Below are positions 1 through 35,583 of a DNA stretch of 35,583 nt, one piece after another. The position numbers and the translations under genes are program-made. Source of the stretch: Calothrix sp. HK-06 (GTDB taxonomy: Bacteria > Cyanobacteriota > Cyanobacteriia > Cyanobacteriales > Nostocaceae). The notes beneath the pieces were generated by a model, which saw nothing but the letters and a program-made list of their open reading frames with translations, searched no databases and was not told the DNA's origin. The DNA is taken from NCBI RefSeq assembly GCF_001904745.1, contig NZ_MRCD01000090.1, positions 1-35,583 on the forward strand. The letters run 5' to 3'. Position 1 is the first letter of the stretch; every line of letters starts with the position of its first letter.

Positions 1-1
1 A

Positions 2-868
2 TTTCGCGAATCGCATGTGCAAGAAATCTTAGACCGACTTGACCAAGAGTTAGTTGGGTTGCAAGCTGTCAAAAACAAAATCAAAGAAATGGCTGCTTTA
101 TTGTTGGTTGACCGCGTTCGCAAAAGTCTAGGTTTAACCGCAGGCGCCCCAACTTTACATATGACGTTTTTGGGGAATCCGGGTATGGGTAAAACCACAG
201 TCGCAATGCGGATGGCAGAAATTTTGCATCGTCTTGGCTATATCCGTAAGGAAAATGTCATGTTGGTGACGCGCGATGATTTAGTCGGACAGGGAATTGG
301 ACAAACAGGCCCGAAAACACGCGAAGTTTTAAATAACGCAATGGGTGGGGTATTACTCGTAGATGAAGCCTATACTTTATTCCGTCCAGATAATCCTGGT
401 GACTTCGGTTTAGAAGCAATCGAAATTTTGATGCAGGTAATGGAAAATCAACGAGATGATTTAGTTGTAATTCTCGCTGGTTACAAGCAACAAATGGAGC
501 ATTTCTTCCATAGTAATCCTGGAATGAATTCGCGTATTGGTTTACACATCGAATTTAATGATTATTCGGTAGATAACTTGATGATTATTGCCAATTCAAT
601 ATTGCGAAATCAGCATTACCACTTTAGCCCCGATGCTGAGAAAGCTTTTCGTGAGTATTTAATTAGACGTAAAGCAATGCCACATTTTGCCAACGCGCGT
701 AGTGTACGCAATGCTATTGATAGAGCGCGTTTGCGTCAAGCAAATCGTTTATTGAATATACGCGATAGACAGGTGACAAGAGATGATTTGATGACTATCG
801 AAGCAGCTGATATTTTAGCAAGCCGTGTGTTTAAAGATGGTGTACCTGATTGTGAGAGTGAAAGTTAG
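2..868 (+). CDS. cbbX: CbbX-like AAA+ ATPase (5' end outside window)
   Basis: An AAA+ ATPase of the CbbX/CfxQ/SpoVK group. CbbX is the activase that remodels inhibited red-type Rubisco. Numbering from the GTG at 17, I see Walker A GNPGMGKT (53-60), Walker B VDEAY (115-119), an arginine in NSRIG near 173 and the sensor-2 region FANARSVRNAIDRARLRQANR. The likeness to proteobacterial CbbX is close along the whole length. The frame stays open through the left edge (codons for FRESH precede the GTG) and that segment also resembles the CbbX N-terminus, so the true start is outside the window and the GTG at 17 is probably internal. Oddity: pore loop 1 reads GQGIG, where CbbX has GQYIG, so the substrate-gripping tyrosine is a glycine (residue 93). 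Cyanobacteria use green-type Rubisco, so the client is unclear. Confidence 0.85.
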   Translation, partial: FRESHVQEILDRLDQELVGLQAVKNKIKEMAALLLVDRVRKSLGLTAGAPTLHMTFLGNPGMGKTTVAMRMAEILHRLGYIRKENVMLVTRDDLVGQGIGQTGPKTREVLNNAMGGVLLVDEAYTLFRPDNPGDFGLEAIEILMQVMENQRDDLVVILAGYKQQMEHFFHSNPGMNSRIGLHIEFNDYSVDNLMIIANSILRNQHYHFSPDAEKAFREYLIRRKAMPHFANARSVRNAIDRARLRQANRLLNIRDRQVTRDDLMTIEAADILASRVFKDGVPDCESES

Positions 869-947
869 CAACGGATAAAACGGGTGTAACGGATTATTTA
901 TTTGGACGCATTACCCATCCGTTACATCCGTTCATAATCCGTTGCTA
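866..947. repeat. Imperfect long inverted repeat, ACGGAT family, between convergent genes
   Basis: The left arm starts inside the cbbX stop codon (TAGCAACGGAT) and the right arm ends ATCCGTTGCTA, overlapping the stop of the gene on the other strand. Each arm also holds further ACGGAT or ATCCGT units. It can act as a bidirectional terminator. A related single arm lies at 24184-24210, also just after a stop codon, so this is a dispersed family. Confidence 0.7.
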
Positions 948-1181
948 ATTCTTACTTTGCAATCGTAAGCATTCAACTGTATAAAAAATAGCGCTTACTG
1001 TTAATAAAATTAGCGCTAATTGTGTTAATTCCTTGATATAGTTACCTTTTGACCATAATAAGCCACCAGAAATTAGGAAGGCTAGAATTAGTAATATATA
1101 TTGTTGTTGGAATAGCTGGGGACGGACAATTGAGATTAAAGATAGCAAAATAGCTGTGATAATTAGTACTGTAACTAGCAT
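945..1181 (-). CDS. Small Ycf66-like membrane protein
   Basis: A 78-aa hydrophobic protein with two or three probable membrane helices: residues 1-20, an IVRPQLFQQQ turn, 28-44, then 50-68 before a basic end. The pattern from RPQLF through a second helix to a final TQLALILLTVSAIFYTVECLRLQ-like segment recalls the Ycf66 family of cyanobacteria and plastids (final segment of the form FGQ-LL-FFA-ESIRLR). That assignment is from memory of the family and is tentative. The ATG follows the stop of the upstream broken kinase gene by one base (TAA-A-ATG), so it was probably translated by coupling to that gene. Its function is unknown. Confidence 0.55.
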   Translation of the reverse strand: MLVTVLIITAILLSLISIVRPQLFQQQYILLILAFLISGGLLWSKGNYIKELTQLALILLTVSAIFYTVECLRLQSKN

Positions 1182-1182
1182 T

Positions 1183-6679: not shown

Positions 6680-7621
6680 ATGCCAACTCACTTAGCACAC
6701 ACGCAAGAAATTCTAGAAAAAATCGCTCAATTACAAGCTATCTGCGCGCGAGATGTAGGTAGAGGTATACAGGCACTTGTGAAGGTAACACAAGGAGAAC
6801 TTTTAGGCGCCGCTAGTTCTATAGTTAATCACTCATCGCCACATGTAGTAATTATTACTGGGTTTTTCTTGCCTCACACTAATCCACCTGTAGCTGAAAC
6901 TGATGGTTTAATAGGGAGCGTACAGTTGGCTGCAAGCTTGATTCGTAATGGTGTAAGTGTAAGAATAGTTACAGATTCGTATTGTTTCCCAGCGGTGAAA
7001 AGTGCTGCTTCTGCTGCTGGTGTGCCAAGCAGTGTTGAATTTGATATTGCGCCTGTAGTACCAAGTACGCATTATGAAGTAATAACTCCAATATTGGAAA
7101 CTTGGAAATGTCTTGCAACTCCTATAACGCACGTTATTTCGATTGAGCGTCCGGGGCCTGGTTATGATGGAATTATTCGTAATATGCGCGGGCAAGATAT
7201 TACTGCTCACACGGCGCCGTTACATTTATTATTTAATTTACCAAACGTCACTTTTATTGGTATTGGTGATGGTGGTAATGAATTAGGGATGGGTAAGATT
7301 CCCAGAGAAATTATTTCTAACAGTATTCGATATGGAGAGAGAATTGCTTGTGTGGTAGCTTGCGATTATTTACTTGTTTGTGGTGTTTCTAATTGGGGTG
7401 CTTCGGCTTTGTTGTGCGCTTGTGCTTTATTAAAACCAGAGTGGAAAAGTATTATTAAAGAACAATTAAACCCAGAGATTGAATTTAAGATTTTACAAAC
7501 TGTGGTTAATAATAATTTGGCAGCAGATGGAGTTACAGGGAAAGCAGCTTTGACGGTAGATAATTTACCTTGGGAGTTTCATGCTGAAGTTTTGAACCAA
7601 ATTAATGAATTTCTCTTGTAG
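6680..7621 (+). CDS. DUF4392 protein; C-terminal half of D-glutamate cyclase
   Basis: A 313-aa protein matching DUF4392, the C-terminal half of DGLUCY. Visible segments are IITGFFLPHTNPPVAETDGLIGSVQLA (SAM- or nucleotide-domain-like Rossmann start), ISIERPGPGYDGIIRNMRGQDI, and the glycine-rich IGIGDGGNELGMGKIP, which is the most typical signature of the family. The start is ATG 6680, with no clear Shine-Dalgarno sequence. It follows the DUF1445 gene on the same strand with twin hairpins between them. The two proteins probably act together in D-glutamate breakdown, feeding 5-oxo-D-proline to further metabolism. This is inferred from the eukaryotic fusion. No D-glutamate racemase or oxoprolinase gene is in the window. 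Confidence 0.85.
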   Translation: MPTHLAHTQEILEKIAQLQAICARDVGRGIQALVKVTQGELLGAASSIVNHSSPHVVIITGFFLPHTNPPVAETDGLIGSVQLAASLIRNGVSVRIVTDSYCFPAVKSAASAAGVPSSVEFDIAPVVPSTHYEVITPILETWKCLATPITHVISIERPGPGYDGIIRNMRGQDITAHTAPLHLLFNLPNVTFIGIGDGGNELGMGKIPREIISNSIRYGERIACVVACDYLLVCGVSNWGASALLCACALLKPEWKSIIKEQLNPEIEFKILQTVVNNNLAADGVTGKAALTVDNLPWEFHAEVLNQINEFLL

Positions 7622-7649
7622 GATAGCTAACTACCTGTCTTATTGAAAT

Positions 7650-7678
7650 GGGCGGGCAAGGATGCCCGCTCCACAAGA
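7650..7678. repeat. Dispersed repeat GGGCGGGCAAGGATGCCCGC...CCACAAGA
   Basis: A copy of a short repeat with a 7-bp stem (GCGGGCA / TGCCCGC, loop AGGA) followed by TCCACAAGA, sitting between two convergent genes, where it could end transcription from either side. Related copies are at 14739-14768 and 25218-25248. Confidence 0.7.
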
Positions 7679-7679
7679 T

Positions 7680-8543
7680 TTATTTGTTTAGATTTTCAAA
7701 TTCTGCTAAATGTTTTGTAACTTCTTGGCATAGTAAATCATGATATTCACCGTTAGAAGCTAGCAAGCCGCCCCATTGATTAATTTCTTGTGTGTTATAT
7801 AGCAATGTGGAATTATCGTATCGAGTATATTTACCACCTGCTTCGGATAATATCAATTCGGGCGCCGCGATATCCCAGTCTTTAGGCGCCGATTTTCCGG
7901 AGAGGGAAATATAAACGTCTGCTTGTTGTTCGACGATAGAGGCAATTTTACAACCAATACTACCTACGTTTTTATGAGTTTGACAGGGTAATTTGCTCAA
8001 GACGTAATCTAATGGTTTGCTACGATGCGAACGACTAACTAAGACTGTCAAAGTTTCAATGGGTTTTTGTCTTGAGACTTGCAAACGTTGAATATTCCCG
8101 TCGCGTGTTTCAACGAAGGCGCCATTACCAACGGTAGCATAATATATTTTATCCTGTTCAGGTACGGCAACTAATGCTAGTACAGGGCGATGATTTTGGA
8201 CTAAACCAATATGGATAGCATATTCTCCTGTTTTGTCAATAAAATCGCGCGTTCCGTCTAAGGGGTCAATTATCCATACAAGATATGAGTCTACTTGCTC
8301 ACCTTGGTAAGTTTCTTCACTAATATAACCAAAGTCTTCCTTTCCTAATTTTGCTTGCAGGTTTTCAATGAGATAATTACTTACTGCAATATCTGCTGCT
8401 GTTACGGGGTCATCAGTCGAGCTATCTTTATACTGTATATCCAAATCTTGGCGCCTGTTTCCGTGATAATAGTCGCGCAAAATATCGGCGGCACTCCAAG
8501 TAATAGGACGTGCAATTTCTAAAATTTCTTGCAGATTTTTCAT
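7680..8543 (-). CDS. cysQ: 3'(2'),5'-bisphosphate nucleotidase, CysQ type (IMPase family)
   Basis: A 287-aa member of the Mg-dependent inositol-monophosphatase superfamily. The metal-binding set is present: SEET (75-78), DPLDGTRDF (93-101) and the late WDIAAPELILSEAGG, in which the WD aspartate binds metal. CysQ removes the 3'-phosphate of PAP, a by-product of sulfate assimilation. Cyanobacterial members with this length and the FIDKTGEYAIHIGLV segment are usually called CysQ, but substrate cannot be proved from sequence and inositol or fructose phosphates are possible. The gene starts 14 bp after the PfkB kinase stop, so the two are probably one minus-strand operon. Confidence 0.78.
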   Translation of the reverse strand: MKNLQEILEIARPITWSAADILRDYYHGNRRQDLDIQYKDSSTDDPVTAADIAVSNYLIENLQAKLGKEDFGYISEETYQGEQVDSYLVWIIDPLDGTRDFIDKTGEYAIHIGLVQNHRPVLALVAVPEQDKIYYATVGNGAFVETRDGNIQRLQVSRQKPIETLTVLVSRSHRSKPLDYVLSKLPCQTHKNVGSIGCKIASIVEQQADVYISLSGKSAPKDWDIAAPELILSEAGGKYTRYDNSTLLYNTQEINQWGGLLASNGEYHDLLCQEVTKHLAEFENLNK

Positions 8544-8557
8544 TTATTTGAATATTC

Positions 8558-9430
8558 CTATTCTAGCCAACGACGTGTGCCGAAATATTGACACGAACGA
8601 GCCGCAACTTTTGCACTACAACGTATAGCCTCAGCAAAATTATGCTGAAGAATATAGTAACAAAAAGCACCGTGAAAAATATCTCCCGCTCCTAGAGTAT
8701 CAGTTGGTTGAATACTTGGAACATTTATAGTCAAAATTTTTTGGTCGCTCATGCAGCTAATAGGCTGTTCACCGTATGTAATGGCAATATTAGGTATCCC
8801 CATTTGGTCTAAATAAGCAAAAGTGTCTTGTTCGGTGCGACAATTAGGAGGATGAAAGTTCGCAGAGCAGATGGCGAAGTCAACGAAGGGTAAAATTTTT
8901 TCAAAGCCGGGTTTCCAACTTCCACCGTCGATAACTACTGGAATATTTCTGGCTTTGGCAAGTTGGGCAATGTGGTAGCTGACTTCTATCTGATGCCCGT
9001 CGATAAGAATTATATCTATATATTCGAGATATTCAAGAAGATTTTTTGAGATTGCTTGAGGACTAACCTGAGTTTTGACGGCATTTATAGATATTACTGC
9101 TCTTTCACCCGTGGTTTGGGTGACAATAATTGATGATACTGGGGGGGGACTTTGGAATGATGCTTCTAAGTCGGTAATAGTAACTTTGTATTTTTCTAAG
9201 TCAGTACGAATTAATTGCGTCATTGGATGCGAACCAAGTACACCTAATAATTCCGCTTTACCTCCAAGATGATTAAATGCCACTGCTGCGTTAGTCGCTG
9301 GACCACCTGCTGCCACCGTATAATCTGAAGCTACAAGTTTTTGGTTGTTTTGGGGTGGTGATGAGGCAAGGTAAATTAAGTCTAGAGTGATTAAACCAAC
9401 GAATAATCCGTAATATTGGTTATTGTCCAT
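8558..9430 (-). CDS. PfkB-family carbohydrate kinase
   Basis: A 290-aa sugar or nucleoside kinase of the ribokinase/PfkB fold. PfkB signature 1 is at 41-60 (AAGGPATNAAVAFNHLGG) and signature 2 at 244-256, with GAGD and catalytic base Asp250. The early segment LDLIYLASSPPQNNQKLVA is the usual substrate-side strand. The exact sugar is not evident. It is probably co-transcribed with the cysQ-like gene 14 bp downstream. The start lies 32 bp from the divergent rsmI start, so both promoters must fit in a very small space or overlap the genes. Confidence 0.85.
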   Translation of the reverse strand: MDNNQYYGLFVGLITLDLIYLASSPPQNNQKLVASDYTVAAGGPATNAAVAFNHLGGKAELLGVLGSHPMTQLIRTDLEKYKVTITDLEASFQSPPPVSSIIVTQTTGERAVISINAVKTQVSPQAISKNLLEYLEYIDIILIDGHQIEVSYHIAQLAKARNIPVVIDGGSWKPGFEKILPFVDFAICSANFHPPNCRTEQDTFAYLDQMGIPNIAITYGEQPISCMSDQKILTINVPSIQPTDTLGAGDIFHGAFCYYILQHNFAEAIRCSAKVAARSCQYFGTRRWLE

Positions 9431-9462
9431 TACCTAATTCCTTATTTTCTAATCCTTAATTC

Positions 9463-10296
9463 ATGACATCAGGAACACTTTACGTTGTTGGTACACCGAT
9501 TGGTAATCTAGAAGATATGACTTTTCGCGCGGTACAAACTTTACAAAATGCTGATTTAATAGCAGCAGAAGATACACGTCATACAGGCAACCTACTTCAG
9601 CATTTTCAAATTAATACTCCACAAGTTAGTTACCATGAGCATAATCGCAGTACTCGAATTCCCGAATTATTACAAAAGCTAATTGACGGTAGTACTATTG
9701 CATTGGTTAGTGATGCGGGGATGCCAGGTATTTCTGACCCTGGATATGAATTAGTAAAAGCTTGTATTGATTCTGATATAAAAGTAGTGCCAATTCCAGG
9801 CGCCAGTGCGGTAATTACAGCATTGAGTGCAGGTGGTTTGCCTACTGATAAATTTGTATTCGAGGGATTTTTACCACCGAAAACGAATCAAAGGCGCCAA
9901 CGCTTGGAATTTCTTCTTAAAGAATCTCGAACTATTATTTTCTATGAATCGCCACATCGTTTGCGTGCGAGTTTACAAGACTTAGCAGAAGTAATGGGAC
10001 AAGGGCGCCAAATCGTTCTTGCACGGGAGTTAACTAAATATTATGAGGAATTTTGGCGTGGAACAGTTGAAGAAGCTTGTCGTCACTACAAGTCACGCGA
10101 ACCACAAGGAGAATATACGATCCTGGTGGGAGGTGTAACGAATGAAACCCAGCTTTCTGAAAGTCAAATTAAGGCAGAACTAGAAAAAATGATTAGTCAA
10201 GGAATTGCCCGCTCGCAAGCAAGTCGCGAAATCGCACTTTTAACTTCGCTTCCTCGTCGCTATATATACCAACTAGCCTTAGAAATCGAAGATTAG
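9463..10296 (+). CDS. rsmI: 16S rRNA (cytidine(1402)-2'-O)-methyltransferase RsmI
   Basis: A 277-aa SAM-dependent methyltransferase of the tetrapyrrole-methylase fold. It begins MTSGTLYVVGTPIGNLEDMT, which is diagnostic of RsmI, and continues with AAEDTRHTGNLL, the SAM-binding VSDAGMPGISDPGYELV and VPIPGASAVITALSAGGLPTDKFVFEGFLP. RsmI 2'-O-methylates C1402 in the decoding centre of 16S rRNA. The length is normal for the family and no lesion is visible. It is divergent from the PfkB gene and transcribed alone as far as can be seen. Confidence 0.95.
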   Translation: MTSGTLYVVGTPIGNLEDMTFRAVQTLQNADLIAAEDTRHTGNLLQHFQINTPQVSYHEHNRSTRIPELLQKLIDGSTIALVSDAGMPGISDPGYELVKACIDSDIKVVPIPGASAVITALSAGGLPTDKFVFEGFLPPKTNQRRQRLEFLLKESRTIIFYESPHRLRASLQDLAEVMGQGRQIVLARELTKYYEEFWRGTVEEACRHYKSREPQGEYTILVGGVTNETQLSESQIKAELEKMISQGIARSQASREIALLTSLPRRYIYQLALEIED

Positions 10297-10426
10297 ATTA
10301 ATCATAGTAACTTCTAATAGCACAAATTATAAAGAAAATCTTAAATGTTACGGGATATTATTATTTTGATGCCAGTCTAATAACAATAAAAATTTGATAC
10401 AAGCTAGGGCTTACACATAAAATCCT

Positions 10427-10492
10427 AGAAACCGTGTTTCTTCGTTGAAATCTTTTATAAAAATGAAAATTTTGCGTAGAAACCCGGTTTCT
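10427..10492. repeat. Pair of AGAAACC(C/G)GGTTTCT-type palindromes
   Basis: Two short palindromes, AGAAACCGTGTTTCT (10427-10441) and AGAAACCCGGTTTCT (10478-10492), lie in the 369-bp gap after rsmI. The same motif recurs at 16854-16886. It is a dispersed repeat; the arms could pair with each other. Confidence 0.6.
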
Positions 10493-10551
10493 TAGTGTAA
10501 ATGATTCTGGCTGTATACCCTATAAATAAGTTTTGTGGGACGTTTGTCCTA

Positions 10552-10590
10552 TAGCGTCAGTCTTTTATAAAGACTTTGGCGCTAATTTTT
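10552..10590 (+). promoter_or_regulatory. Long hairpin plus T-run ahead of a small unknown gene
   Basis: TAGCG...AGTCTTT (10552-10565) can pair with AAAGACT...CGCTA (10569-10584), with a short bulge and a 3-4 nt loop, and is followed by ATTTTT. The 3' arm ends about 85 bases before the ATG at 10669. It reads like a terminator or attenuator on the plus strand. Because rsmI ends about 255 bases earlier, it may serve as an rsmI terminator or as part of a leader for the next gene. I see no other signal in the rest of the 10297-10668 gap. Confidence 0.45.
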
Positions 10591-10668
10591 AGGGAAGACA
10601 AGGGTATCAGTGGTGCAAGCTGTCCAAAATATGTTCATTCAAGTTAATTATTTACAGTTTAAGAGTTG

Positions 10669-10917
10669 ATGAGTGTCATTCAAGTAGTTTCTCAGTATCT
10701 AGCATACAAATTTCCTTGGTGGGGAGTTTGTCACTTAAAATTTGACCTTATACAAAAAAACATTTCTATTCACTGCCAAACTCCTGAATGTCGAGCAGCA
10801 ATACTTAGAGACGCTGAAGGACTAGCTTACTTAGACATAGGCGTAGAAAAGTTTGTAATTGTTTATCCTGGGTATAGCGATATTACTATTCCGCACATAC
10901 CACGTAAAACTGCCTAG
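10669..10917 (+). CDS. Small conserved-looking protein, function unknown
   Basis: An 82-aa protein starting at ATG 10669 (a TTG one codon earlier is also open). I do not recognise the family. It is soluble, has an aromatic patch YKFPWWGVCH near residues 13-22 and two cysteines spaced HCQTPEC (about 36-42), and ends in a basic PRKTA. The gene is followed at once by a textbook terminator, which supports real transcription. It stands alone between rsmI and dps. Confidence 0.55.
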   Translation: MSVIQVVSQYLAYKFPWWGVCHLKFDLIQKNISIHCQTPECRAAILRDAEGLAYLDIGVEKFVIVYPGYSDITIPHIPRKTA

Positions 10918-10923
10918 TAAGAT

Positions 10924-10946
10924 AAAAGGGGAAAACCCCTTTTTTT
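10924..10946 (+). terminator. Rho-independent terminator
   Basis: AAAAGGGG, loop AAAA, CCCCTTTTTTT: a perfect 8-bp stem running into a T-tract, 7 bp after the stop of the 82-aa gene. Confidence 0.85.
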
Positions 10947-11062
10947 CTTTCGGCAAAATTATAAATCATCTAACGGATTAACCCCATCTATCGCGAGGGA
11001 GTTTTGAAATGCGATAGAAAATTAGTAGACTTGTCTCGTCGATCCGAAAACGAGAGAAACTA

Positions 11063-11626
11063 ATGAGTGGCAACTTAGCATCAAGACTTTATCCTACCCG
11101 CATCGATATTCCAACAGATGCTCGTAAACAAATAGTAGTAATACTCAATCAGACTCTAGCAGCTACATCCGATTTAAAGAGTCAAACAAAGCAAGCACAT
11201 TGGAACGTAAAAGGAAGTGACTTCTACCAGTTACATGAATTATTCGATGAAATTGCTGGTGAACTTGAAGAGTATGTTGATATGTTTGCCGAGCGTATTA
11301 CCGCTTTAGGTGGTTATGCAATGGGAACAGTTCGCATGGCTGCTGAAAATTCAATTTTGCCAGAATATCCCACCGAAATTTTAACAGGCATGGAGCATGT
11401 AACATCTTTAGCAGAACGTTTTGGGCCCTACGCGAAACACTTGCGTGAAGCTATTGACAGCACAGATGAACTAGGCGATGCTGACACCGCTGATCTGTAC
11501 ACTGAAGTTTCACGCACTATTGACAAGCGTTTATGGTTCCTCGAAGCACACCTACAAGCTTCTAGCGTTACCAGTAACGGGGCGCCTGCAACTGCCAAAA
11601 ATCTAGACACCGTTGGTGTTAATTAA
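11063..11626 (+). CDS. dps: Dps-family ferritin-like protein
   Basis: A 187-aa Dps mini-ferritin, which oxidises and stores iron and protects DNA during oxidative stress or starvation. The inter-subunit ferroxidase set is complete: His46 in QAHWNVKG, His58 and Asp62 in LHELFDE, and Asp73 and Glu77 in VDMFAERITALGG. The N-terminal stretch has several basic residues and the C-terminal tail (about 167-187) is low-complexity and probably disordered. GAGAG lies about 5-9 bases before the ATG. The leader has two small inverted repeats (TATCGC/GCGATA near 10988-11015 and TCTCGT/ACGAGA near 11034-11056), perhaps regulatory. The gene is followed by a hairpin terminator. Confidence 0.92.
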   Translation: MSGNLASRLYPTRIDIPTDARKQIVVILNQTLAATSDLKSQTKQAHWNVKGSDFYQLHELFDEIAGELEEYVDMFAERITALGGYAMGTVRMAAENSILPEYPTEILTGMEHVTSLAERFGPYAKHLREAIDSTDELGDADTADLYTEVSRTIDKRLWFLEAHLQASSVTSNGAPATAKNLDTVGVN

Positions 11627-11635
11627 ATAGTTAGG

Positions 11636-11670
11636 AGTTATGAGTTAATAAGTCATAACTCATAACTTTT
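11636..11670 (+). terminator. Hairpin after dps
   Basis: AGTTATGAGT (11636-11645) pairs with ACTCATAACT (11658-11667) across a 12-base loop, then TTTT. It is a 10-bp perfect stem, 10 bases after the dps stop. Confidence 0.65.
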
Positions 11671-11691
11671 CTTGAATAGTATCCTTTTGGT

Positions 11692-11724
11692 AAGTACGTT
11701 ACTTTTAAGTGCGTACTTTTTATT
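11692..11724 (+). terminator. Second weak hairpin with T-run
   Basis: AAGTACG and CGTACTT are separated by 13 bases and followed by TTTATTT. It may back up the dps terminator or belong to the pirin leader. Confidence 0.35.
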
Positions 11725-11726
11725 TG

Positions 11727-11756
11727 TTGTCAAGTTATCTAATATATAAATATACA
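11727..11756 (+). promoter_or_regulatory. Possible sigma-70 promoter for the pirin gene
   Basis: TTGTCA at 11727, an 18-base spacer, then TATACA at 11751, about 88 bases before the pirin ATG. It is a consensus-like match only; AT-rich flanks make chance matches easy. Confidence 0.3.
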
Positions 11757-11843
11757 AAAATTGACTTGATTCTCTTTACCACTGACACTATTAGGACACA
11801 GAAAAGAGGTTAGAGAGATTTTTACTTAATATTAGGGGGAATT

Positions 11844-12557
11844 ATGTCTCAAACAGTAACACATTTAATTCATGACAGAAACGCACGCGGAACTACACAA
11901 ATAGGTTGGCTAGACAGTCGTCATACGTTTTCTTTTGGTAACTTTTACGACCCAAACCGAATGGGTTTCCGCAGTTTAAGAGTTATAAATGATGACCGCG
12001 TGGCGCCTGGGGCAGGGTTTGCAACTCATGGTCATAAAGACATGGAAATTCTTACTTATGTTCTAGAAGGAGCATTAGAACATAAAGATAGTTTAGGTAC
12101 TGGTTCAGTAATACTTCCAGGAGAAGCACAAATTATGAGTGCAGGAACTGGAATTAGGCACAGCGAATATAATCATTCTAAAACTGAACCAGTTCACCTA
12201 TTGCAAATCTGGATTTTACCTAACCAACAAAACTTAGAACCCAGATACGAGCAAAAAGCATTTTCTGTTGAAGAACGTAGTGGTAAGCTGCGTTTGATAG
12301 GCGCCAAAGATGGACGTGATGGTGCTGTTAAAATTTACCAAGATGTAGATTTATATACATCGGTTTTAAATGCTGGTGACGTTGTAAATTATCACGTCCA
12401 ACCACATCGGTATGCTTGGCTACAAATTGCAAAAGGTGTAGTTAACCTAAACGGTGAGGAACTACGCGCAGGTGATGGAGTACAAATTAATGGCGCCGAA
12501 CAGCTAGAAATTAGTACTACTGTAGGCGGAGAAATTTTGTTATTCGATTTAGGGTAA
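11844..12557 (+). CDS. Pirin-family cupin (YhhW-like)
   Basis: A 237-aa bicupin. The N-terminal cupin keeps the four metal ligands of pirins: His62 and His64 in [10 protein letters not shown], and His106 and Glu108 in GIRHSEYN. The preceding stretch [14 protein letters not shown] is the typical pirin N-terminus. Bacterial homologues such as YhhW have quercetin 2,3-dioxygenase activity in vitro, but the physiological role is usually stress- or metabolism-related and unknown. AGGGGGA lies just before the ATG, a strong ribosome site with short spacing. It is followed by a strong hairpin and then an SDR gene on the same strand. Confidence 0.88.
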
Positions 12558-12558
12558 A

Positions 12559-12583
12559 GTAGGGTGGGCAGTGCCCACCCTAC
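12559..12583. terminator. Perfect GTAGGGTGGGC hairpin
   Basis: GTAGGGTGGGC (12559-12569) and GCCCACCCTAC (12573-12583) form an 11-bp stem with a 3-base loop, one base after the pirin stop. There is no T-tract. A diverged copy lies at 24228-24247, so it is a dispersed palindrome used at gene ends. Confidence 0.65.
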
Positions 12584-12604
12584 ATTTGTTTACTATCAAA
12601 CATT

Positions 12605-13345
12605 ATGTCTCAACTAACAGGAAAAGTAGCAATCGTCACAGGCGCCTCACGAGGAATTGGCAGAGCTATAGCTTTAAAACTAGCTCAACAGGGCGCCTCA
12701 ATTATTGTTAACTATGCTGGAAATAGCGCCAAAGCACAAGAAACCGTTGAAGATATTAAAAAAATAGGTGTCACAGCACACGCAGTTCAAGCTGATGTCA
12801 GTAAAATTTCAGAAATAAATAAACTTTTTGACCAAACTATCGAGCAATTTGGCAAAATAGATATTCTCGTCAATAATGCTGGCATAAATATATATAAGCC
12901 TATTACAGAAGTCACTGAAAAAGACTTTGACGAAATCTTTGATATCAACGTTAAGGGTACATATTTTGCCTGTCAACAAGCAGCGCTTCGTATGGCAGAG
13001 TCTGGACGTATAATTAATTTTTCTTCAACTACAACTGCAATGATGTTGCCTACTTATAGTGCTTATGTAGGAACTAAAGGCGCCGTTGAACAAATAACGC
13101 GGGTGTTAGCTAAAGAACTTGGAAGTAAAGGTATCACTGTAAATGTTGTTTCTCCTGGACCTACCGATACTGAATTATTTCGTGAAGGTAAAAGCGAAGA
13201 AGCAATTAACCGCTTTGCCCAAATGGCTGCACTTGGGCGCCTGGGTCAAGTTCAAGATATAGCTGATGTAGTCGCTTTTCTAGCTAGCGATGAAGCGCGC
13301 TGGATAACCGGACAAAACATTCGTGTTAACGGAGGTATAACTTAG
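12605..13345 (+). CDS. SDR-family oxidoreductase (FabG-like)
   Basis: A 246-aa classical short-chain dehydrogenase/reductase. It has the NAD(P) loop TGASRGIG (12-19), DV at 64-65, NNAG (90-93), catalytic Ser in FSST (139-142), Tyr154 and Lys158 in YVGTK, and the PG motif in VSPGPTDTELF. The N-terminal basic Arg16 after Ser suggests NADPH. It resembles 3-oxoacyl-ACP reductase FabG and glucose dehydrogenase-like SDRs, and the substrate cannot be fixed. There is no clear ribosome site. It lies 47 bp after the pirin gene with a hairpin between them, so it is probably transcribed separately or weakly coupled. Confidence 0.88.
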   Translation: MSQLTGKVAIVTGASRGIGRAIALKLAQQGASIIVNYAGNSAKAQETVEDIKKIGVTAHAVQADVSKISEINKLFDQTIEQFGKIDILVNNAGINIYKPITEVTEKDFDEIFDINVKGTYFACQQAALRMAESGRIINFSSTTTAMMLPTYSAYVGTKGAVEQITRVLAKELGSKGITVNVVSPGPTDTELFREGKSEEAINRFAQMAALGRLGQVQDIADVVAFLASDEARWITGQNIRVNGGIT

Positions 13346-13391
13346 ATAGAGATAGAATATACCTACTCATAGCAATTAAGAAATAAAGTTT

Positions 13392-14039
13392 ATGTTTGCC
13401 GTTGTAACATCGGAAAAAATTCAATTATCTCCAGGTACAGTAATGAGCTTTCCAGGCAGTTGGCAAGACTATCAAAAGTTGTGCCAGCAGTTAGCAGATA
13501 GACCTTCACCACGCATTAAATATCGACCAGGGGAAATTTTGTTGATGTCACCGTTACCAAAACATGGACGTGATGTTCATATTATATCGATGGTTGTAAT
13601 TGCTTTATTAGACAACTTAGAGCAAAATTATGAAGCATTTACGCCAATCACGATGGAAATTGCTGAAGTCAGTGGCGTAGAACCAGGCTACTGCTTTTAT
13701 ATTGATAATTGGGCTGCTGTAGCAGGTAAAGATAGGATTAATTGGGGTGTTGACCCATCACCTGATTTGGCTATAGAGATAGATGTCACCAGCTTTACAG
13801 ATATTAATGACTATTTACCTTATAAAGTACCTGAAGTTTGGATATTCAAAAGAAACTAGGTATTTATTCATCAGTTAGAAGATAAAGAGTACATTCTTAA
13901 GCCTATTAGTAAGTATTTTCTAAATATCAATATTTTAGATATTGTTCATAATACTTTGCAAAAAGCCCGTGAATCTAACGCCAGTATAGCGATTAGAGAA
14001 CTAAGACAATTAGATAAAAAATGGATGCACCCTAAATAA
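13392..14039 (+). pseudogene. Uma2-family (DUF820) nuclease gene with an in-frame stop
   Basis: A Uma2/DUF820 protein of the PD-(D/E)XK nuclease fold, a family greatly expanded in cyanobacteria. The first 155 codons have the family hallmarks IKYRPGEILLMSPLP, HGRDVHIIS and VDPSPDLAIEIDVTS, then PEVWIFKRN. A TAG at 13857-13859 stops it. The same frame then runs on for 59 codons to TAA 14037, and that part is clearly the missing C-terminus (IHQLEDKEYIL...LQKARESNASIAIRELRQ). The stop most likely came from CAG by one change. The truncated product lacks only the last quarter, so residual function is possible. Confidence 0.82.
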
Positions 14040-14557
14040 CAAAAATTGGAGATTCTAAAAAGTGTTTTAATTAAACTTGCTATATTTGACTGCAAAAATA
14101 TAGCATTAATTGGTAGATATAGAGACTGATAACTGGAGAAGTTGATGCAGTCCCTAATAACTGGAGAGTTGGAGTATAGATTCTGTTTACCTAGTTGGAT
14201 TCACTTAAGTAAATTTACCAACCATGTTTAGATAATAAGCGTAGAAAAATTAAAAAGGTGTAAACAAACAGTTATTTTGTATAAACTTATGTTGTTTTTT
14301 ACGAGTATTTACGAGTATTTTGTCAATCATTTTTTGTCTTCTAATGCATCATTTTTAACTAATCATCAACGTAGTGTATGCCGGATTTTTATTTGGCACA
14401 ATCGTATTTAAGTAAATACCGTCAATAGCAAACATGACAGATTTGTTAGTGTCATATATAGCTACCAAATTTTGCTTAGATAAGCGAATAAATAGCACAT
14501 TAATGTTAGAAACCCTTGAAAAGTATTATTTCTAAACAATTTTGTTGATTTATAGCA
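14040..14557. other. AT-rich intergenic region without a convincing gene
   Basis: Seen here: a direct repeat of ACGAGTATTT (14299-14318), a partial repeat of ATAACTGGAGA near 14128-14165, and a 47-codon minus-strand frame (14355-14498, GTG start, no ribosome site) reading LSKQNLVAIYDTNKSVMFAIDG-like sequence. That frame has natural-looking codon use but no recognisable family, so it is either a tiny gene or a relic. Confidence 0.4.
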
Positions 14558-14585
14558 GTAGAGACGTTACATGTAACGTCTCTAC
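14558..14585. repeat. Perfect 28-bp palindrome, GTAGAGACG family
   Basis: GTAGAGACGTTACA followed directly by its exact reverse complement, then GGGGTTTT. Relatives are at 20193-20216 and 34103-34153. It is a dispersed cyanobacterial-type palindrome and a likely transcription terminator. Confidence 0.75.
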
Positions 14586-14631
14586 GGGGTTTTAAATATT
14601 ACGTGTATTTCCCTAACCTAAAATCTTTAAA

Positions 14632-14773
14632 ATTCTTTCTCTCTTGTGGGTGTCCTCGCCCGTCCCACTAGCTCTTTTATTCAGAGGCGCCCTATTGGCT
14701 CTTTTCTTCACAGGTGCCCTATTGGCTTTTTTATTCACAGGCGGGCAGGGATGCCCGCTCCACAAGAAAGAAT
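14632..14773. mobile_element. MITE-like compound repeat with three 27-bp tandem units
   Basis: The ends are an imperfect inverted repeat: ATTCTTTCTCTTGTGG on the left, CCACAAGAAAGAAT on the right. Inside lie three tandem units of 27 bases (14672-14698, 14699-14725, 14726-14752). The first two end GG(C/T)GCCCTATTGG and the third merges into the GGCGGGCAGGGATGCCCGC repeat. No gene is inside. The short open frames on both strands here are a by-product of the repeat. It looks like a non-autonomous mobile element, or an aggregate of the CCACAAGA repeat family. Confidence 0.6.
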
Positions 14774-14868
14774 GAATGATTTTAATTCTATAAGGCAAAA
14801 AAAAACAGAGGCACTATTACATGTCTCTGGAATTTCCTATGCAATTAAACCATCCTCAAACGCCGTTT

Positions 14869-20185: not shown

Positions 20186-20192
20186 TATTGAT

Positions 20193-20220: not shown

Positions 20221-20236
20221 TATTATTTATATTATT

Positions 20237-21472
20237 TTATTCATTCAATGTATACGCATCCCGACCTCTACCCAAAGCAAACAGCATAGAGGCACGCAAA
20301 TCTTTACTTGACTGAGTAAAGAAAATTATAATGGCTATCACAGTCAGTACAGCAACGAAACCAAACATATTGCGATAACCAACTTGTTCAGCAACAGAAC
20401 CTAATACTGGACCTGCTATCGCAATACCAACATCAAACCCCGAAATACAAAGCGCAAAAATTCTTCCACGTTCAGTAGGTAGTGAACGGTCTGCCATCAT
20501 TGCCACTATCATTGGAATTAATGTACCACCCCCGGCGCCTTGAATTAAAGCTGCTAGCAAAAAGTCAACTGCGGTGTTTGCTTGCCATAGTAAAAACATT
20601 GCTACGCTATAACAGGCAATACCAATGGTAATAAATAAACCTCTGCCAATACGGTCGCTAGTTTTGCCTGTAACTAACCGGATACTAAAACTTGTAATTG
20701 CTGCTGCGGTATAGAATAACCCCGGATTCAAATCTACTTGAGTCGATTTGAGAAATAAAGGTACAAAAGTGCTGATGGTTCCAAACGCTAGTCCCACAAG
20801 AAGCATGACGATAGTAGGAACTCTAACTCTGGGACTTAAGAGAATTTGCCAAAATTTATTTTTACCATTATTTGTTTCTTGCTGCGTTGGCGCCATCAAT
20901 AGAGGAGCTACAACTTGTAATGTACATACTAGTGAAGCAGTTGCCAACCCAGTTGCAAGTAAAAACAAAGGTACATATCCACTAACTTCTTGTAAATAAC
21001 CACCTATGGCAGGGCCTATTGCCATACCAAGAGGGTTAACCAAACTCATATAACCAAGAATTTCACCGCGTTTTGTGCTTGGGGCAATATCTGTTACTAA
21101 TGCGCTAAATGCAGTTGTAAACGCTGCAATACTAATACCGTGAAACGCACGCAATGCCATTAATACGGGTACTGATGTTGCAACTGCATAACCAAGTGGC
21201 GCCAAAGCAGCAGAAGTAACACCAATAATTAGTACAATTTTACGACCACGTTCGTCAGCTAATCTACCTAAATAAGGACGAAATAATAATAAACCGATAG
21301 CAAAACTGCCCATCGTCACGCCAATTTGCTGTTTAGTTGCCCCGATATGTTGTATGTACAAAGGCAGTGTTGGCAACTGTGAAGCCATACTCGACCAGAA
21401 TAATAAACCTGCTGCAAATAATACCAGCAGGTCACGACGTAATTTTGAATCAAATGTTTGTAAAGCGTCCAC
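20237..21472 (-). CDS. MFS transporter
   Basis: A 411-aa inner-membrane transporter of the major facilitator superfamily with about 12 membrane helices. The A-like motif GRLADERGRK is between helices 2 and 3, its repeat GKTSDRIGRG lies in the second half, and motif-C-like GPAIGGYLQ is near helix 5. The ordering is that of drug/multi-solute exporters (DHA1-like), but the substrate is unknown. It has a normal length and no lesion. It lies 58 bp downstream of the glycosyltransferase gene on the same strand and may share its transcript. Confidence 0.88.
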   Translation of the reverse strand: MDALQTFDSKLRRDLLVLFAAGLLFWSSMASQLPTLPLYIQHIGATKQQIGVTMGSFAIGLLLFRPYLGRLADERGRKIVLIIGVTSAALAPLGYAVATSVPVLMALRAFHGISIAAFTTAFSALVTDIAPSTKRGEILGYMSLVNPLGMAIGPAIGGYLQEVSGYVPLFLLATGLATASLVCTLQVVAPLLMAPTQQETNNGKNKFWQILLSPRVRVPTIVMLLVGLAFGTISTFVPLFLKSTQVDLNPGLFYTAAAITSFSIRLVTGKTSDRIGRGLFITIGIACYSVAMFLLWQANTAVDFLLAALIQGAGGGTLIPMIVAMMADRSLPTERGRIFALCISGFDVGIAIAGPVLGSVAEQVGYRNMFGFVAVLTVIAIIIFFTQSSKDLRASMLFALGRGRDAYTLNE

Positions 21473-26517: not shown

Positions 26518-28836
26518 TTAATTTTCCAAACTATTTGTCACCATTCCTAAAATTCCTATTCGTCCGGATTTTAACTCCTCTATTACTTGTTTGAAGCTAG
26601 GACGTCTTGTTTTACCTAGTCCAACGACAAGTAGTATACTATCAGAGTGGTTTATCAAGGCGTTTGTATCTAATCGCCCTAACAAATTAGGTGTGTCATA
26701 AATAACTAAGTCGAAATGCGTGCGTGATAGTTCAACAAAATTATCCATTTGGCTAGAGGTGAATAATTTGTTTGGGTTGGCTTTTGCTTTACCCGCAGTC
26801 AACACATACAAGTTTTCTTCTCTTGGTAATTGCTGAACAGAGTCCTTTATGTCTAATCCTTGTGAAAGTACTTCGCTTAATCCTTCAGTATTTGGTATGC
26901 CTAATTGAGTATGAAGTTGTGGATGTCGTAAATCAGCATCAACCAGTAAAACTCTTTGCCCTGCTTCTGCTGCTATTTGCGCTAGGTTGACTGCAACAGT
27001 AGTTCTACCTTCACCTGATGTTGTAGATGTTACAGATATTGAGCGAATTGGCATTTCTTGGCTCAAGGATTGTACGCGGTTATAAAGGGAACAGAATGCT
27101 TGCGTGAAAACCGCGTTTTTATCGTTTTGCTTCAAAGCAAGGTTTGATTCTGTCTGTTCTTTATCTCTAACGTTATCTCTAATGTTAAATTTTACGACAT
27201 TGCTAATTGCGGGAATAGAAACGTTTCGACAAAAAGGTATGGCGCCAATAATAGGTAATTTTGCTGTGCGCTTTATTTCTTCTGGGTCATGGAAAACATT
27301 TTTGAAATTTTCTAGTACAAATGCGGCGCCTGTACCAAGAAGTAAACCAGCAATTCCACCCAGTAAAATGTTTTGCGAGGAAGCGGGTGAAACAGGAACT
27401 AAGCGACCTTGCTTGTCACGCGGCAAGGTTGGAGGCATTATTATCTCCCAAGGAACTTCTTGTTGCGCGACATCAACCCGCAAAGCTTCTTGTCTTGCAA
27501 GGAGTTGATTTTGGGTATCGGTAGCTATTTGTAAATCGCGCTGTAAATTTGCGTACTGACGTGCGACTTGCGGATATTGATTGATTTGTTGATTAAGTTG
27601 ATACTCAGCTTGGGTCAATGCGCGCAAACTCGCATCTAATGACTGCATTTGATTGGTGCTGTCAGCAAGTTGCTTGGTTAAATCACGCCGTACTGTGTTT
27701 TGATAGGTGGCAACAGATGATGGAAATCTTGCACCTGTACGGTTGCCTAATGCTAATTGTTCTTCTTGCTGTAACAACGGCAGCAGTTTTTCGCGCTGTT
27801 CTCGTAAACTTCGCATCACGGGACTTGCTTCTTGATATCGCACTGACTGGGCAGCTATTTGAGCATCAAGTTCTCGAAGACGAGTTAGTAGTTGTTGATA
27901 TTGGGGGGACTCACTTAAAGCACTAGCAGCGATTGCATCACTTTGTGACATTCCTAATTGCCCTTGCAGTGATATGTATAGTGACCGTGCTTCTAAAAAT
28001 TTCCGCTCGGTTTCCAAACGTTGTACTTTAATATCATCTAGTCGCTTTAACAACTGCTCACCTTGTAGCTGTGGGTTGTAAAAATTGTAACGCTGTTGAA
28101 ATGCTTGAAGTTGTCCTTGGAGTGTGCTAACGCGCATTTGCAACTTTGGTACTTGCTGCTCGACAAATTTCATGCCTTGTCGCAAACTAGATTGCTGCTG
28201 TTCGATACTATACTTGCGATAAGCTTGAGATACTTCTTGTAGTACAGACTCAATTTTCTGTGGATTCTTATCACGGAAGCGGACTTCAATTACACGCGAT
28301 TCATCTTTTCCTTTTGCAAGCCGCGTCATTAATAGCGTACCTTCACGGTTAGCGGGTGTCTTTCCTACTACATCAGAACCAACTAATTGGTCATAGTTGA
28401 TATCTGGAAACTCAGTTCTTAATTCTTTAACAACTGGGCCAATTAACTTGGGACTCTTAAGTACCTCCATTAAAGCGTTATAGTCTAACGCTGTTGTGTT
28501 TTGCTTGGTAATCTCATTTACGTTCTGTTGAAGTGTTTTAGATAATAACTTCAATAGTTCGCTATCAGTAGTTTTCAATGGTTCCACCATTATTTGAAAC
28601 CGACCTTCATACTTAGGTGTCCGCGTTGCTGACCACACAGTTGAAGTTGCTGCTACTGCCACTGTTACTCCTGCGATTAACCAGGCTTGACGACGCAGAA
28701 CTCCCAAAGCTGGGATAAATACTGAATTTTCTTCTTCTTCTGGCTTTTTAATTGCCCAAAAAGCTTCGCGTGCTGTAGAGTAAGGATTTTTCACCCTTGA
28801 GGCGCCATTTTGCTTTGTCGGTATTTGTGTTCCCAT
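26518..28836 (-). CDS. Wzc/GumC-like exopolysaccharide chain-length and export protein with an altered P-loop
   Basis: A 772-aa inner-membrane protein. The layout is a cytoplasmic N-terminus, TM1 (about 52-72), Wzz domain with EGRFQIMVEPL, a long periplasmic coiled coil (about 195-460), TM2 (about 490-512) and a C-terminal BY-kinase-like ATPase domain. Walker A reads TSGEGRTTVAVN, with Arg611 where BY-kinases have the catalytic Lys. Walker A' VLLVDADLR (629-637) and Walker B VIYDTP are intact. The usual Tyr cluster at the very C-terminus is missing, since the protein ends GMVTNSLEN. It may control chain length and export without autophosphorylating. It is divergent from the polymerase operon and coupled to the flippase gene. 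Confidence 0.88.
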   Translation of the reverse strand: MGTQIPTKQNGASRVKNPYSTAREAFWAIKKPEEEENSVFIPALGVLRRQAWLIAGVTVAVAATSTVWSATRTPKYEGRFQIMVEPLKTTDSELLKLLSKTLQQNVNEITKQNTTALDYNALMEVLKSPKLIGPVVKELRTEFPDINYDQLVGSDVVGKTPANREGTLLMTRLAKGKDESRVIEVRFRDKNPQKIESVLQEVSQAYRKYSIEQQQSSLRQGMKFVEQQVPKLQMRVSTLQGQLQAFQQRYNFYNPQLQGEQLLKRLDDIKVQRLETERKFLEARSLYISLQGQLGMSQSDAIAASALSESPQYQQLLTRLRELDAQIAAQSVRYQEASPVMRSLREQREKLLPLLQQEEQLALGNRTGARFPSSVATYQNTVRRDLTKQLADSTNQMQSLDASLRALTQAEYQLNQQINQYPQVARQYANLQRDLQIATDTQNQLLARQEALRVDVAQQEVPWEIIMPPTLPRDKQGRLVPVSPASSQNILLGGIAGLLLGTGAAFVLENFKNVFHDPEEIKRTAKLPIIGAIPFCRNVSIPAISNVVKFNIRDNVRDKEQTESNLALKQNDKNAVFTQAFCSLYNRVQSLSQEMPIRSISVTSTTSGEGRTTVAVNLAQIAAEAGQRVLLVDADLRHPQLHTQLGIPNTEGLSEVLSQGLDIKDSVQQLPREENLYVLTAGKAKANPNKLFTSSQMDNFVELSRTHFDLVIYDTPNLLGRLDTNALINHSDSILLVVGLGKTRRPSFKQVIEELKSGRIGILGMVTNSLEN

Positions 28837-30777: not shown

Positions 30778-30780
30778 TGA

Positions 30781-34099: not shown

Positions 34100-34102
34100 A
34101 AA

Positions 34103-34153
34103 TGTAAAGACGTGATTATTCCCTGCGGGACACTACGTGAACACGTCTCTACA
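34103..34153. terminator. Imperfect hairpin between convergent genes, GTAGAGACG family
   Basis: TGTAAAGACGTG (34103-34114) and CACGTCTCTACA (34142-34153) pair with one mismatch around a 27-base loop. It shares the GTAGAGACG core with the palindrome at 14558-14585. Confidence 0.6.
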
Positions 34154-34161
34154 TGTTCTTG

Positions 34162-34965
34162 TTAATATTTACCTGCGGTGTGCCAAGAATGACGGCTATC
34201 TTTAGAATTTTTCTTAAGATAGTCTTTTTTAAGGTACAAATTTAGCTTTTGTTTTAAAATTAACAGTAAAAATGGGATATCTTCAATTAAATAACGTTTC
34301 CATAGTCTTTTAGGCTCACACAGCAATCTAAACAGCCATTCAAACCCAGTCTGACTAATCCATTTTGGTGCCCGTTTCATATTTCCTGCTTCAAAATCAA
34401 TTGTTGCGCCAAGTGCCATGAAAATTTTGATGTTTTGCAATTGCTCCTTATATTTACATATCCATTTCTCTTGTTTTGGAGCGCCAACTCCTATGACTAA
34501 AACAGTGGCGCCAGAATTATTTATGATTTCAACAATTTTTTGACATTCTAAATCGTTGTTTTCAAATCCAAAGCTTGGTGAATAAGAGCCAACGACAATA
34601 TTTCTACCAATCTTAAGGTTGATATTCTGCTGTGCTTGAGCAGCAACTCCTTCTCTCGCGCCTAAAAGAAATATTTTAATGCTTTCATTTTGCTGATGGT
34701 GAGTATAGAAAGCTGGCAATAAGTCAGAGCCAGAAATTTTTTCGCGTATAGGAGTACCCAATAGCCTAGCCGCTAAGAGCAGTATCTGACTATCACAAAC
34801 TTTATAGTTACTAACACTATAAGCTTGGACGAATTCTGGGTCTTTTTGCAGCTTCATCAAATGGTCTACATTAGGTGTAAATACAATACCTGATTGTAGG
34901 GTATCTAAAAATTCTACCTTTGATAAATTGTCAATTTCTAAGTTCAGTATTTTAACTTTATTCAT
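34162..34965 (-). CDS. WecG/TagA/CpsF-family glycosyltransferase
   Basis: A 267-aa GT26 enzyme, which adds N-acetylmannosamine(uronate) or glucose to undecaprenyl-linked intermediates. It shows the TPNVDHLM start (30-37), the conserved Asp58 in VCDSQILLLAARLLGTPIREKISGSDLLP (family DG is DS here), VLVIGVGAPKQEKW (155-168) and ATIDFEAGNMKRAPKWISQTGFEWLFRLLCEPKRLWKRY. The C-terminal 35 residues are basic and amphipathic, and could tether it to the membrane. It is convergent with the plus-strand operon and probably part of the same pathway. Confidence 0.88.
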   Translation of the reverse strand: MNKVKILNLEIDNLSKVEFLDTLQSGIVFTPNVDHLMKLQKDPEFVQAYSVSNYKVCDSQILLLAARLLGTPIREKISGSDLLPAFYTHHQQNESIKIFLLGAREGVAAQAQQNINLKIGRNIVVGSYSPSFGFENNDLECQKIVEIINNSGATVLVIGVGAPKQEKWICKYKEQLQNIKIFMALGATIDFEAGNMKRAPKWISQTGFEWLFRLLCEPKRLWKRYLIEDIPFLLLILKQKLNLYLKKDYLKKNSKDSRHSWHTAGKY

Positions 34966-35583
34966 GGTAGAACGCTGTTCATGTGATAATTAAGGTTAAA
35001 GGTTTAGTGCAAAGAGTCAAATAGTTTTAAGCAAACGTAAATTGTTTTGAGGAGATATTTGCTTGACGCGGATATCATTTGTTATCCTTTCTATTAATGA
35101 ATTGTAAAAAGTCAGCTAATAGGCATTGATAATTTTCTAATATCTCAATGTTAAATTACCATATTTATTTAGGTAATCATATATATTTTTTCTGCTTTTT
35201 ACAAAAAATACATAATTAAATACTGGTTATTATCGAATAAAATGCTGTTATTACGTCGTTTCAGGATTTTTTGTCAATAAATCTACTGATGTCTTCATGA
35301 AATTTTCGTAAAGCCTTATTCCTAAAGATAGATAAACTTATCCTGATAAAGAACAGACAAGATTTCTGGTTAATAAAAATTAAAATTTACAACTTATATA
35401 CATAGAATATCTAAAATATAATCATTACACTATTCATTACCTATGTTATGTAAGATGTATTTTAAATATATTTATAAAATCAACAATAATATCAAAGATG
35501 GAATAGAAGTTATTTTTGTTACAAAATAAACTTAATGCAAGCTTTGATTAATCAACAAAAAATACTATTCGATTGATTATAAA
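34966..35583. other. AT-rich 618-bp end of window without a gene
   Basis: Upstream region of the GT26 gene, with no ORF of note, no RNA gene and no clear repeat. It is very AT-rich and lacks GGCGCC. It may contain the promoter of the GT26 gene and of a gene beyond the right edge. Confidence 0.5.

Follow-up and report, generated by a model that had tools for sequence, protein, structure and literature searches.

What takes the place of HIP1, the octamer palindrome that is iterated in many cyanobacterial genomes, in a strain where it is scarce, and what keeps the replacement in place? The question is raised by a contig of Calothrix sp. HK-06 (NZ_MRCD01000090.1), analysed here over its full 35,583 nucleotides (hereafter the window), which is densely sprinkled with the hexamer GGCGCC. 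HIP1, the prototype highly iterated palindrome (HIP; GCGATCGC), has been tied to solitary methyltransferases, and GGCGCC was described as the alternate HIP of Calothrix PCC 7103 and of the D253 fragments (Elhai 2015, PMC4390886); the basic phenomenon is thus already published for a member of the genus to which our strain belongs. That paper reports two GRCGYC-type methyltransferases and none specific for GGCGCC, proposes a ratchet driven by mismatch repair guided by 5-methylcytosine (m5C) in the G-m5C context, and regards exceptional HIPs as sporadic, not arranged in clades and not persistent. Our analysis extends this to a state that spans a whole clade, goes with a methyltransferase, is maintained at the level of the word and probably arose a second time; PMC4390886 was the only paper on the subject retrieved from the open-licence literature in PubMed Central.

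An earlier note on this DNA, based on counts by eye, had put the number of GGCGCC sites at about 60 where 2-3 would be expected, and had seen no HIP1. Both estimates proved accurate: exact search retrieved 63 sites at 39.0% guanine plus cytosine (GC), against 1.9 expected from base composition and a mean of 3.13 (largest 7) in 100 dinucleotide shuffles, and neither HIP1 nor CGATCG occurs in the 35,583 bases. A maximal-order Markov model gives a much higher expectation (36.8), because the sub-words GGCGC and GCGCC mostly belong to GGCGCC itself. GGCGCC is the top 6-mer palindrome of the window, and TGGCGCCA (n=13) the top 8-mer palindrome. The sites are located as follows:

1..35583, no strand: dispersed GGCGCC palindromes, 63 sites found by exact search, with first bases 143, 1978, 2163, 2363, 2658, 3713, 3912, 3968, 4417, 4846, 5863, 6069, 6361, 6454, 6806, 7213, 7861, 7885, 8118, 8450, 9799, 9893, 10004, 11581, 12002, 12300, 12492, 12641, 12692, 13079, 13236, 14686, 15249, 16302, 16689, 17559, 17609, 20534, 20889, 21198, 21741, 21924, 22121, 22459, 22574, 22875, 23978, 24715, 24780, 24948, 25359, 25558, 26346, 27241, 27325, 28801, 28974, 29724, 31888, 32515, 33106, 33555, 34507.

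Their spacing is Poisson-like (mean 554, coefficient of variation 1.01). Most of them (54/63) fall within 29 open reading frames (ORFs) picked from 36, at a density of 2.05 per kb inside these ORFs versus 0.97 outside, and GGC-GCC is the most frequent reading frame, with all three frames and intergenic DNA also bearing sites. The spread through genes and intergenic regions that had been noticed by eye is therefore real; its occurrence on both strands adds nothing, GGCGCC being a palindrome.

The same picture extends to the whole genome (9.99 Mb in 243 contigs), which contains 15,449 copies of GGCGCC and 6 of the reversed word CCGCGG, so that the hexamer is nowhere near expectation genome-wide; HIP1, at 88 copies versus 66 for its own reversed word, is not enriched elsewhere in the genome either. 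Among 217 genomes of the family that were counted, all seven of the genus carry 7,475-20,380 GGCGCC (1,150-1,711 per Mb) and 1-8 CCGCGG each, and none of the remaining 210 has more than 1,053 copies or 111 per Mb. Besides our strain, the genus comprises Dulcicalothrix desertica PCC 7102, Calothrix PCC 7103 (G061), PCC 7716, NIES-4105 and two metagenome-assembled genomes. HIP1 is present at 31-163 copies in these seven genomes versus 37-75 for the reversed word, with a small residue in some of them (163 versus 58 in PCC 7103, 147 versus 37 in G063), and at 5,938-6,966 copies in three genomes of the sister genus g9. Outside the genus, the members of the family poorest in HIP1 are G182 (30 copies), G194 (535), G191 (574) and G184 (990). 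GGCGCC thus behaves as a HIP: it is far above expectation, dispersed genome-wide at 1.15-1.71 per kb in seven genomes, and both genic and intergenic. In 832 kb of loci from the genus, CGCGCG (372 versus 60 expected) and GCGCGC (246 versus 82) are also over-represented.

To follow individual sites, orthologous stretches were located in the other genomes with the aid of an anchor gene in the window:

26518..28836, minus strand: 772-residue protein with Wzz and ParA/AAA domains (Pfam matches), used as anchor for finding the orthologous stretch in other genomes.

This protein finds its best matches at 82-98% identity in the rest of the genus (six genomes) and at 72-73% in the three g9 genomes. Gene groups were drawn from stretches around the window and around the methyltransferase genes, rather than from whole genomes, as reciprocal best hits with 50% identity, 75% coverage and at least two further genomes of the genus; 106 groups served for site retention and for the alignment of HIP1 sites, and 149 for the loss spectrum, divergence, neighbourhood, codon-shuffling and sharing tests. 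Gapped sites were excluded. Among 126 aligned GGCGCC sites with at least three close genomes and both deep relatives (G062 and G063) present, 50 recur in both deep relatives and in half or more of the close genomes; therefore, the genus descends from an ancestor in which GGCGCC was already abundant. Its occurrence in all seven genomes likewise means that it persisted through speciation, contrary to the published inference. The earlier note had proposed that one palindrome was exchanged for another. This is correct at the level of genomes and does not hold in place, since G065 does not read GGCGCC at any of the 17 HIP1 sites of the sister genus that were aligned, and conversion of HIP1 into GGCGCC was accordingly rejected.

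Evidence on what maintains the word comes from its fate in aligned genes. Counting ordered, and hence non-independent, genome pairs, GGCGCC is kept at 2000 of 2300 sites in close pairs versus 57% predicted from the same codons elsewhere, and at 1512 of 2147 sites in far pairs versus 21% predicted; none of 16 other words tested exceeds its retention expectation as much. The central-transition derivative GGTGCC is retained far below expectation (0.11 versus 0.67 in close pairs). On the end branches, counted in 85 groups with at least four of the five close genomes, 48 of 506 ancestral GGCGCC sites were lost versus 111 expected, a ratio of 0.43 that is the lowest of 34 words, the median of which (0.74) is the fair baseline. 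These losses have an uneven spectrum: central transitions occurred as often as expected (36 versus 35.9), and all other losses were reduced to 12 versus 75, a non-central ratio of 0.16 made up of outer transitions (5 versus 42.4) and everything else (7 versus 32.7). Bootstrapping over genes gave ranges of 0.72-1.31 for central and 0.07-0.26 for non-central losses. Such a spectrum would result if the six bases were strongly constrained and position 3 carried a mutable m5C on either strand.

Alternatively, positions 3 and 4 could be merely less constrained, an explanation that is met by three further lines of evidence. Central differences stay flat with divergence, affecting 7.6, 5.5 and 5.8% of sites in pairs at 5-7, 12-13 and 17-18% divergence (4 of the 42 ordered pairs, at 0.073-0.078, fall in no bin), whereas multiple differences rise from 3.5 to 26.9% over the same range. 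Where one close genome has GGTGCC, the partner reads GGCGCC in 160 of 218 comparisons and GGTGCC is kept in only 22. Finally, central losses are mostly unshared between genomes (41:5, versus 768:349 for other C/T differences; p 0.003). A very-short-patch-type repair of GGTGCC to GGCGCC was set aside: it predicts depletion of GGTGCC, and GGTGCC/GGCACC stand at 1.48 times expectation overall. Given how short-lived GGTGCC is, a restoring process specific to the word may nevertheless operate. General CpG hypermutability was discarded as well, third-position C to T changes being found in 182 of 3372 cases before G and in 418 of 6995 before other bases. Within GGC codons, changes are more frequent before GCC (23/292, 7.9%) than before other codons starting with G (3/155, 1.9%; Fisher p 0.01).

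The earlier note had linked the word to a different methyltransferase. A candidate gene does exist; its connection with GGCGCC comes from genome comparison and the mutation pattern, and is to be read as a probable one. A search with PF00145 identified two m5C methyltransferase families in all seven genomes of the genus, cluster 0 (about 313 amino acids) and cluster 1 (370 amino acids). Cluster 0 comprises, besides diverged paralogs, a core ortholog that is 81-99% identical to the PCC 7103 copy in five other genomes; the core gene is the one at L101:9470-10411. Its place is assembled in six genomes, and in these it lies 84-243 bp after members of one same gene family, RuBisCO-like by Pfam in both members tested. 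A tree of 50 sequences places the core copies and an intact 83% relative, encoded on a 16.8-kb contig of our strain, in a single clade (100/99), nested within a 17-row group (100/96) with homologs from Calothrix, Rivularia and Richelia and with paralogs. The core enzyme is 61-72% identical, over nearly its whole length, to homologs of other genomes; the closest outside the genus (70-72%) are those of Calothrix CSU_2_0 and C. elsteri, in the sister genus. There, homologs occur in two of three genomes and both adjoin a HindVP-like endonuclease gene; the HindVP model PF09519 matches the neighbour of a sister-genus homolog at 2e-154 and no protein in any of the seven genomes of the genus, the 14 control genomes of that search being also silent. 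Likewise, PADLOC models matched none of eight neighbour proteins from the genus and only the sister-genus endonuclease. As for other methyltransferases, an m5C group common to four of five HIP1-rich relatives (G027, G028, G029 and G076) has no member in the genus, and PF02086 enzymes, present in all 12 genomes asked, were rejected as a discriminator because they do not separate the genus from its HIP1-rich relatives.

Outside the genus the homologs accompany a conspicuous lack of sites. The family includes 53 such genomes bearing a homolog at E 1e-70, and 258 kb around it (13 loci, 12 genomes) contain no GGCGCC (20 expected), no GACGTC (19) and no GACGCC or GGCGTC (27); the same 12 genomes have 0-71 GGCGCC genome-wide. 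When relatives were sought in all bacteria, the best 80 of 278 comprised 6 within the genus and 74 outside. Fifty-four of the latter loci have a HindVP-like match, a few of these matches being short (27 and 52 residues), and contain 12 GGCGCC versus 51.5 expected and 20 of the other GRCGYC words versus 266. The 20 without such a match, which is not proof of absence since some of the 80 loci end at contig ends, have 4 GGCGCC versus 30.4 and 53 other GRCGYC words versus 145. These footprints, together with homology, suggest a GRCGYC-type specificity for the core enzyme.

A second lineage combines word and enzyme. G281, a 3.8-Mb genome of another family drawn from 386 genomes of the phylum, has 9,489 GGCGCC versus 2,450 of the control word, and three of its congeners have 304-343 GGCGCC. 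In 41 kb of G281 at 53% GC, GGCGCC occurs 91 times versus 23 expected, CGGCGCCG 55 times versus 1.8 and HIP1 twice versus 0.9, and all four GRCGYC words are above expectation (loci L332-L334). Among nine genomes outside the genus picked for high GGCGCC or low HIP1, only G281 encodes a full-length methyltransferase homolog (53% identity), and it is the only one of five genomes in its own genus to do so. This homolog sits on a long branch outside the core clade, and the 11 kb around it, limited by a contig end, yielded just a 32-residue HindVP-like match (E 0.015). As one genome with a distant homolog, G281 suggests that enzyme and word were acquired jointly here, in a separate event. Another outlier, G417, was discarded, with 4 GGCGCC versus 9.4 expected in two 13-kb pieces and plentiful HIP1; high ratios of GGCGCC to the control word were also noted in further genomes of the phylum draw, e.g. 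G255.

We consider it rather probable that a domesticated methyltransferase with maintenance of the word itself explains the GGCGCC of the genus. According to this proposal, the ancestor would have carried a GRCGYC restriction-modification system composed of a HindVP-type endonuclease and an m5C methyltransferase. The endonuclease would have been lost and the methyltransferase kept at its fixed chromosomal place beside the RuBisCO-like gene, where its most likely target is the inner cytosine, GG(m5C)GCC. Once methylated, the word may then have turned useful or self-favouring and risen to about 1.5 per kb as HIP1 vanished, with a force on the six bases themselves removing young losses. The simplest such force would be purifying selection for a methylated mark serving in DNA maintenance or self-recognition.

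Several observations weigh against this proposal. In our own strain the core gene is represented only by two fragments, residues 1-87 and 209-313, each at a contig end (G000:C29 and G000:C207); its middle, catalytic part was not found in this genome, as an insertion, a deletion or an assembly gap would each explain. The specificity assigned to the enzyme leans in part on that of HindVP, which we take to be GRCGYC, and the other three words of this pattern are depleted in the genus, to 0.08 and 0.35 of expectation. The footprint also appears outside carriers: the sister-genus genome G028 lacks a homolog at E 1e-70 and has only 4 GGCGCC. Indeed, the word is rare throughout the family, with medians of 4.9 per Mb in the 157 genomes without a homolog and 1.1 in the 53 with one (Mann-Whitney p 0.0017, ignoring kinship). 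The 20 homolog loci devoid of a HindVP-like match are not enriched in GGCGCC, and the enzyme alone is therefore insufficient. As for the sites, AAGCTT (0.61 versus 0.38) and CGCGCG (0.43 versus 0.24) are also over-retained in far pairs, the next-lowest loss ratios (0.46 and 0.50) follow closely, and a single gain was recorded on the end branches, which offered few opportunities. GGC codons before non-G bases change at 40/380 (10.5%), above the rate within GGCGCC; central C to T changes are thus not elevated in absolute terms, and their hypermutability is to be understood relative to the constraint at the other positions. Finally, the cluster 1 enzyme is found in all seven genomes as well.

One alternative is a methylation-dependent self-recognition tag for uptake, defence or phage tolerance, by which tagged DNA would be accepted or spared, host and phages would both gather the word, and recombination would restore lost sites; a methylated uptake word exists in Campylobacter. 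It draws on a prophage of PCC 7103. A 16-kb stretch of this strain (L063, G061:C7:2450000-2466000) has 4.37 GGCGCC per kb and encodes a tail protein, a Rha-type regulator and a phage-type helicase (three of seven proteins tested), and two of its proteins are 100% identical to those of a 92-kb IMG/VR provirus. The 32.6 kb of the provirus examined, two overlapping loci (L342 and L343) containing no GATC, have 135 GGCGCC, that is 4.15 per kb versus 1.53 in the host (2.7x). A purely chromosomal function would not predict such a density; it would be expected under faster evolution with the same DNA-level force, or if tagged phage DNA were at an advantage. Random spacing and mostly unshared losses also fit a tag. 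Against it, no uptake or defence gene was tied to the word, and the case comes from a single prophage, 15 IMG/VR loci found via the methyltransferase alignment having GGCGCC at most about twice expectation. We regard the tag as rather unlikely to be the explanation. Another dense stretch was noted in NIES-4105 (L038, G062:C3:325000-342000, on a 366-kb contig); it has 3.59 GGCGCC per kb, over double the average of that genome, and a gene for a GRCGYC-type methyltransferase paralog.

It is also conceivable that another methyltransferase matters, e.g. the 370-residue cluster 1 protein or a GGCGCC-only enzyme, and that the GRCGYC-type gene is incidental. The genus-wide presence of cluster 1 is compatible with this idea, as is the fact that GGCGCC alone of the GRCGYC words is enriched in the genus, that cluster 0 homologs elsewhere accompany few GGCGCC sites, and that Elhai found GRCGYC-type enzymes and none specific for GGCGCC (PMC4390886). 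On the other side, cluster 1 also occurs in G076, a genome with normal HIP1 and 277 GGCGCC (an objection that hits cluster 0 in G076 as well), and G281 bears precisely a GRCGYC-type homolog that is absent from the four other genomes of its genus. On balance, we judge a different enzyme unlikely.

Elhai's ratchet, in which G-m5C-guided mismatch repair keeps mutations that create the mark and GGCGCC accumulates as a by-product without function as a word, was published for this very case (PMC4390886). It ties the word to a GRCGYC methyltransferase and accounts for the predominance of GGCGCC over the other GRCGYC forms. At distances beyond 1 kb from any site, or in site-less genes, codons underwent 1308 changes versus 1187 expected, a ratio of 1.10 in the direction the ratchet requires that gene differences could also cause. 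However, codons 1-1000 nucleotides from a site change at 0.94-1.00 of expectation, far from the 0.16 of non-central losses within the word, and protection of the neighbourhood was therefore rejected; without such protection within 1 kb, the restoring force appears to act on the word and not on its surroundings. Moreover, the ceiling of about one site per kb set by the ratchet is exceeded in the genus and, more markedly, in the prophage, and losses are mostly unshared, as under selection. The ratchet is quite unlikely in our view. Codon bias or base composition with no link to methylation, for all the genic majority of window sites and their preferred GGC-GCC frame, is very improbable and was ruled out, since the dinucleotide shuffles fall so far short of 63, synonymous shuffling that keeps protein and codon usage gives 10.1 GGCGCC versus 150 observed in 77 genes of our strain (8.4-14.9 versus 118-291 over the seven genomes, a range that the six others span), sites occupy all three frames and intergenic DNA, and CCGCGG is almost missing from the genus.

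Other palindromes have the opposite fate. The window avoids GATC (10 versus 126 by composition) and GGCC (12 versus 51), and GCATGC (0), GTGCAC (0) and TTCGAA (1) are near zero in the loci of the genus, which suggests many past restriction systems.

The state described here shares with the alternate HIP of PCC 7103 and D253 the word, the genus, the loss of HIP1 and the association with a GRCGYC-type methyltransferase, and extends that report to seven genomes, a core gene with defined neighbours, site-by-site evolution, a prophage and one unrelated genome. Like HIP1, GGCGCC is a dispersed palindrome at about one per kb; unlike it, it is a different word, which does not occupy the aligned HIP1 places. 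With HindVP-type systems, whose GRCGYC specificity we assume as above, the genus shares a homologous methyltransferase, and it differs from them in having no PF09519 match and in being enriched in GGCGCC instead of nearly devoid of it. The DNA uptake sequences of Pasteurellaceae and Neisseriaceae, explained by mutation plus uptake bias, i.e. molecular drive (PMC1939737), are similarly short and over-represented; GGCGCC, by contrast, is a palindrome associated with a methyltransferase.

What HIP1 does has been a puzzle for a long time. The sister genera offer both states side by side, the word with a candidate enzyme in one and a homologous enzyme with an endonuclease and almost no sites in the other, and one unrelated genome repeats the combination of word and enzyme. 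It is tempting to speculate, as a broad scheme that we nonetheless hold to be improbable, that the iterated palindromes of cyanobacteria have grown out of the footprints left by domesticated restriction-modification methyltransferases: after loss of the endonuclease, the methylated word could turn from a liability into a self-recognition mark carried by host and resident phage, held against m5C deamination by word-level selection. Such a mark could take over from HIP1 in lineages independent of one another, and any of several words might fill the role. The genus-wide persistence of GGCGCC weakens the published argument that alternate HIPs do not last, and the site-level evidence speaks for upkeep of the word itself rather than for a mere side effect of repair. 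If the core enzyme methylates GGCGCC, the role of iterated palindromes would become testable through one gene in a culturable strain.

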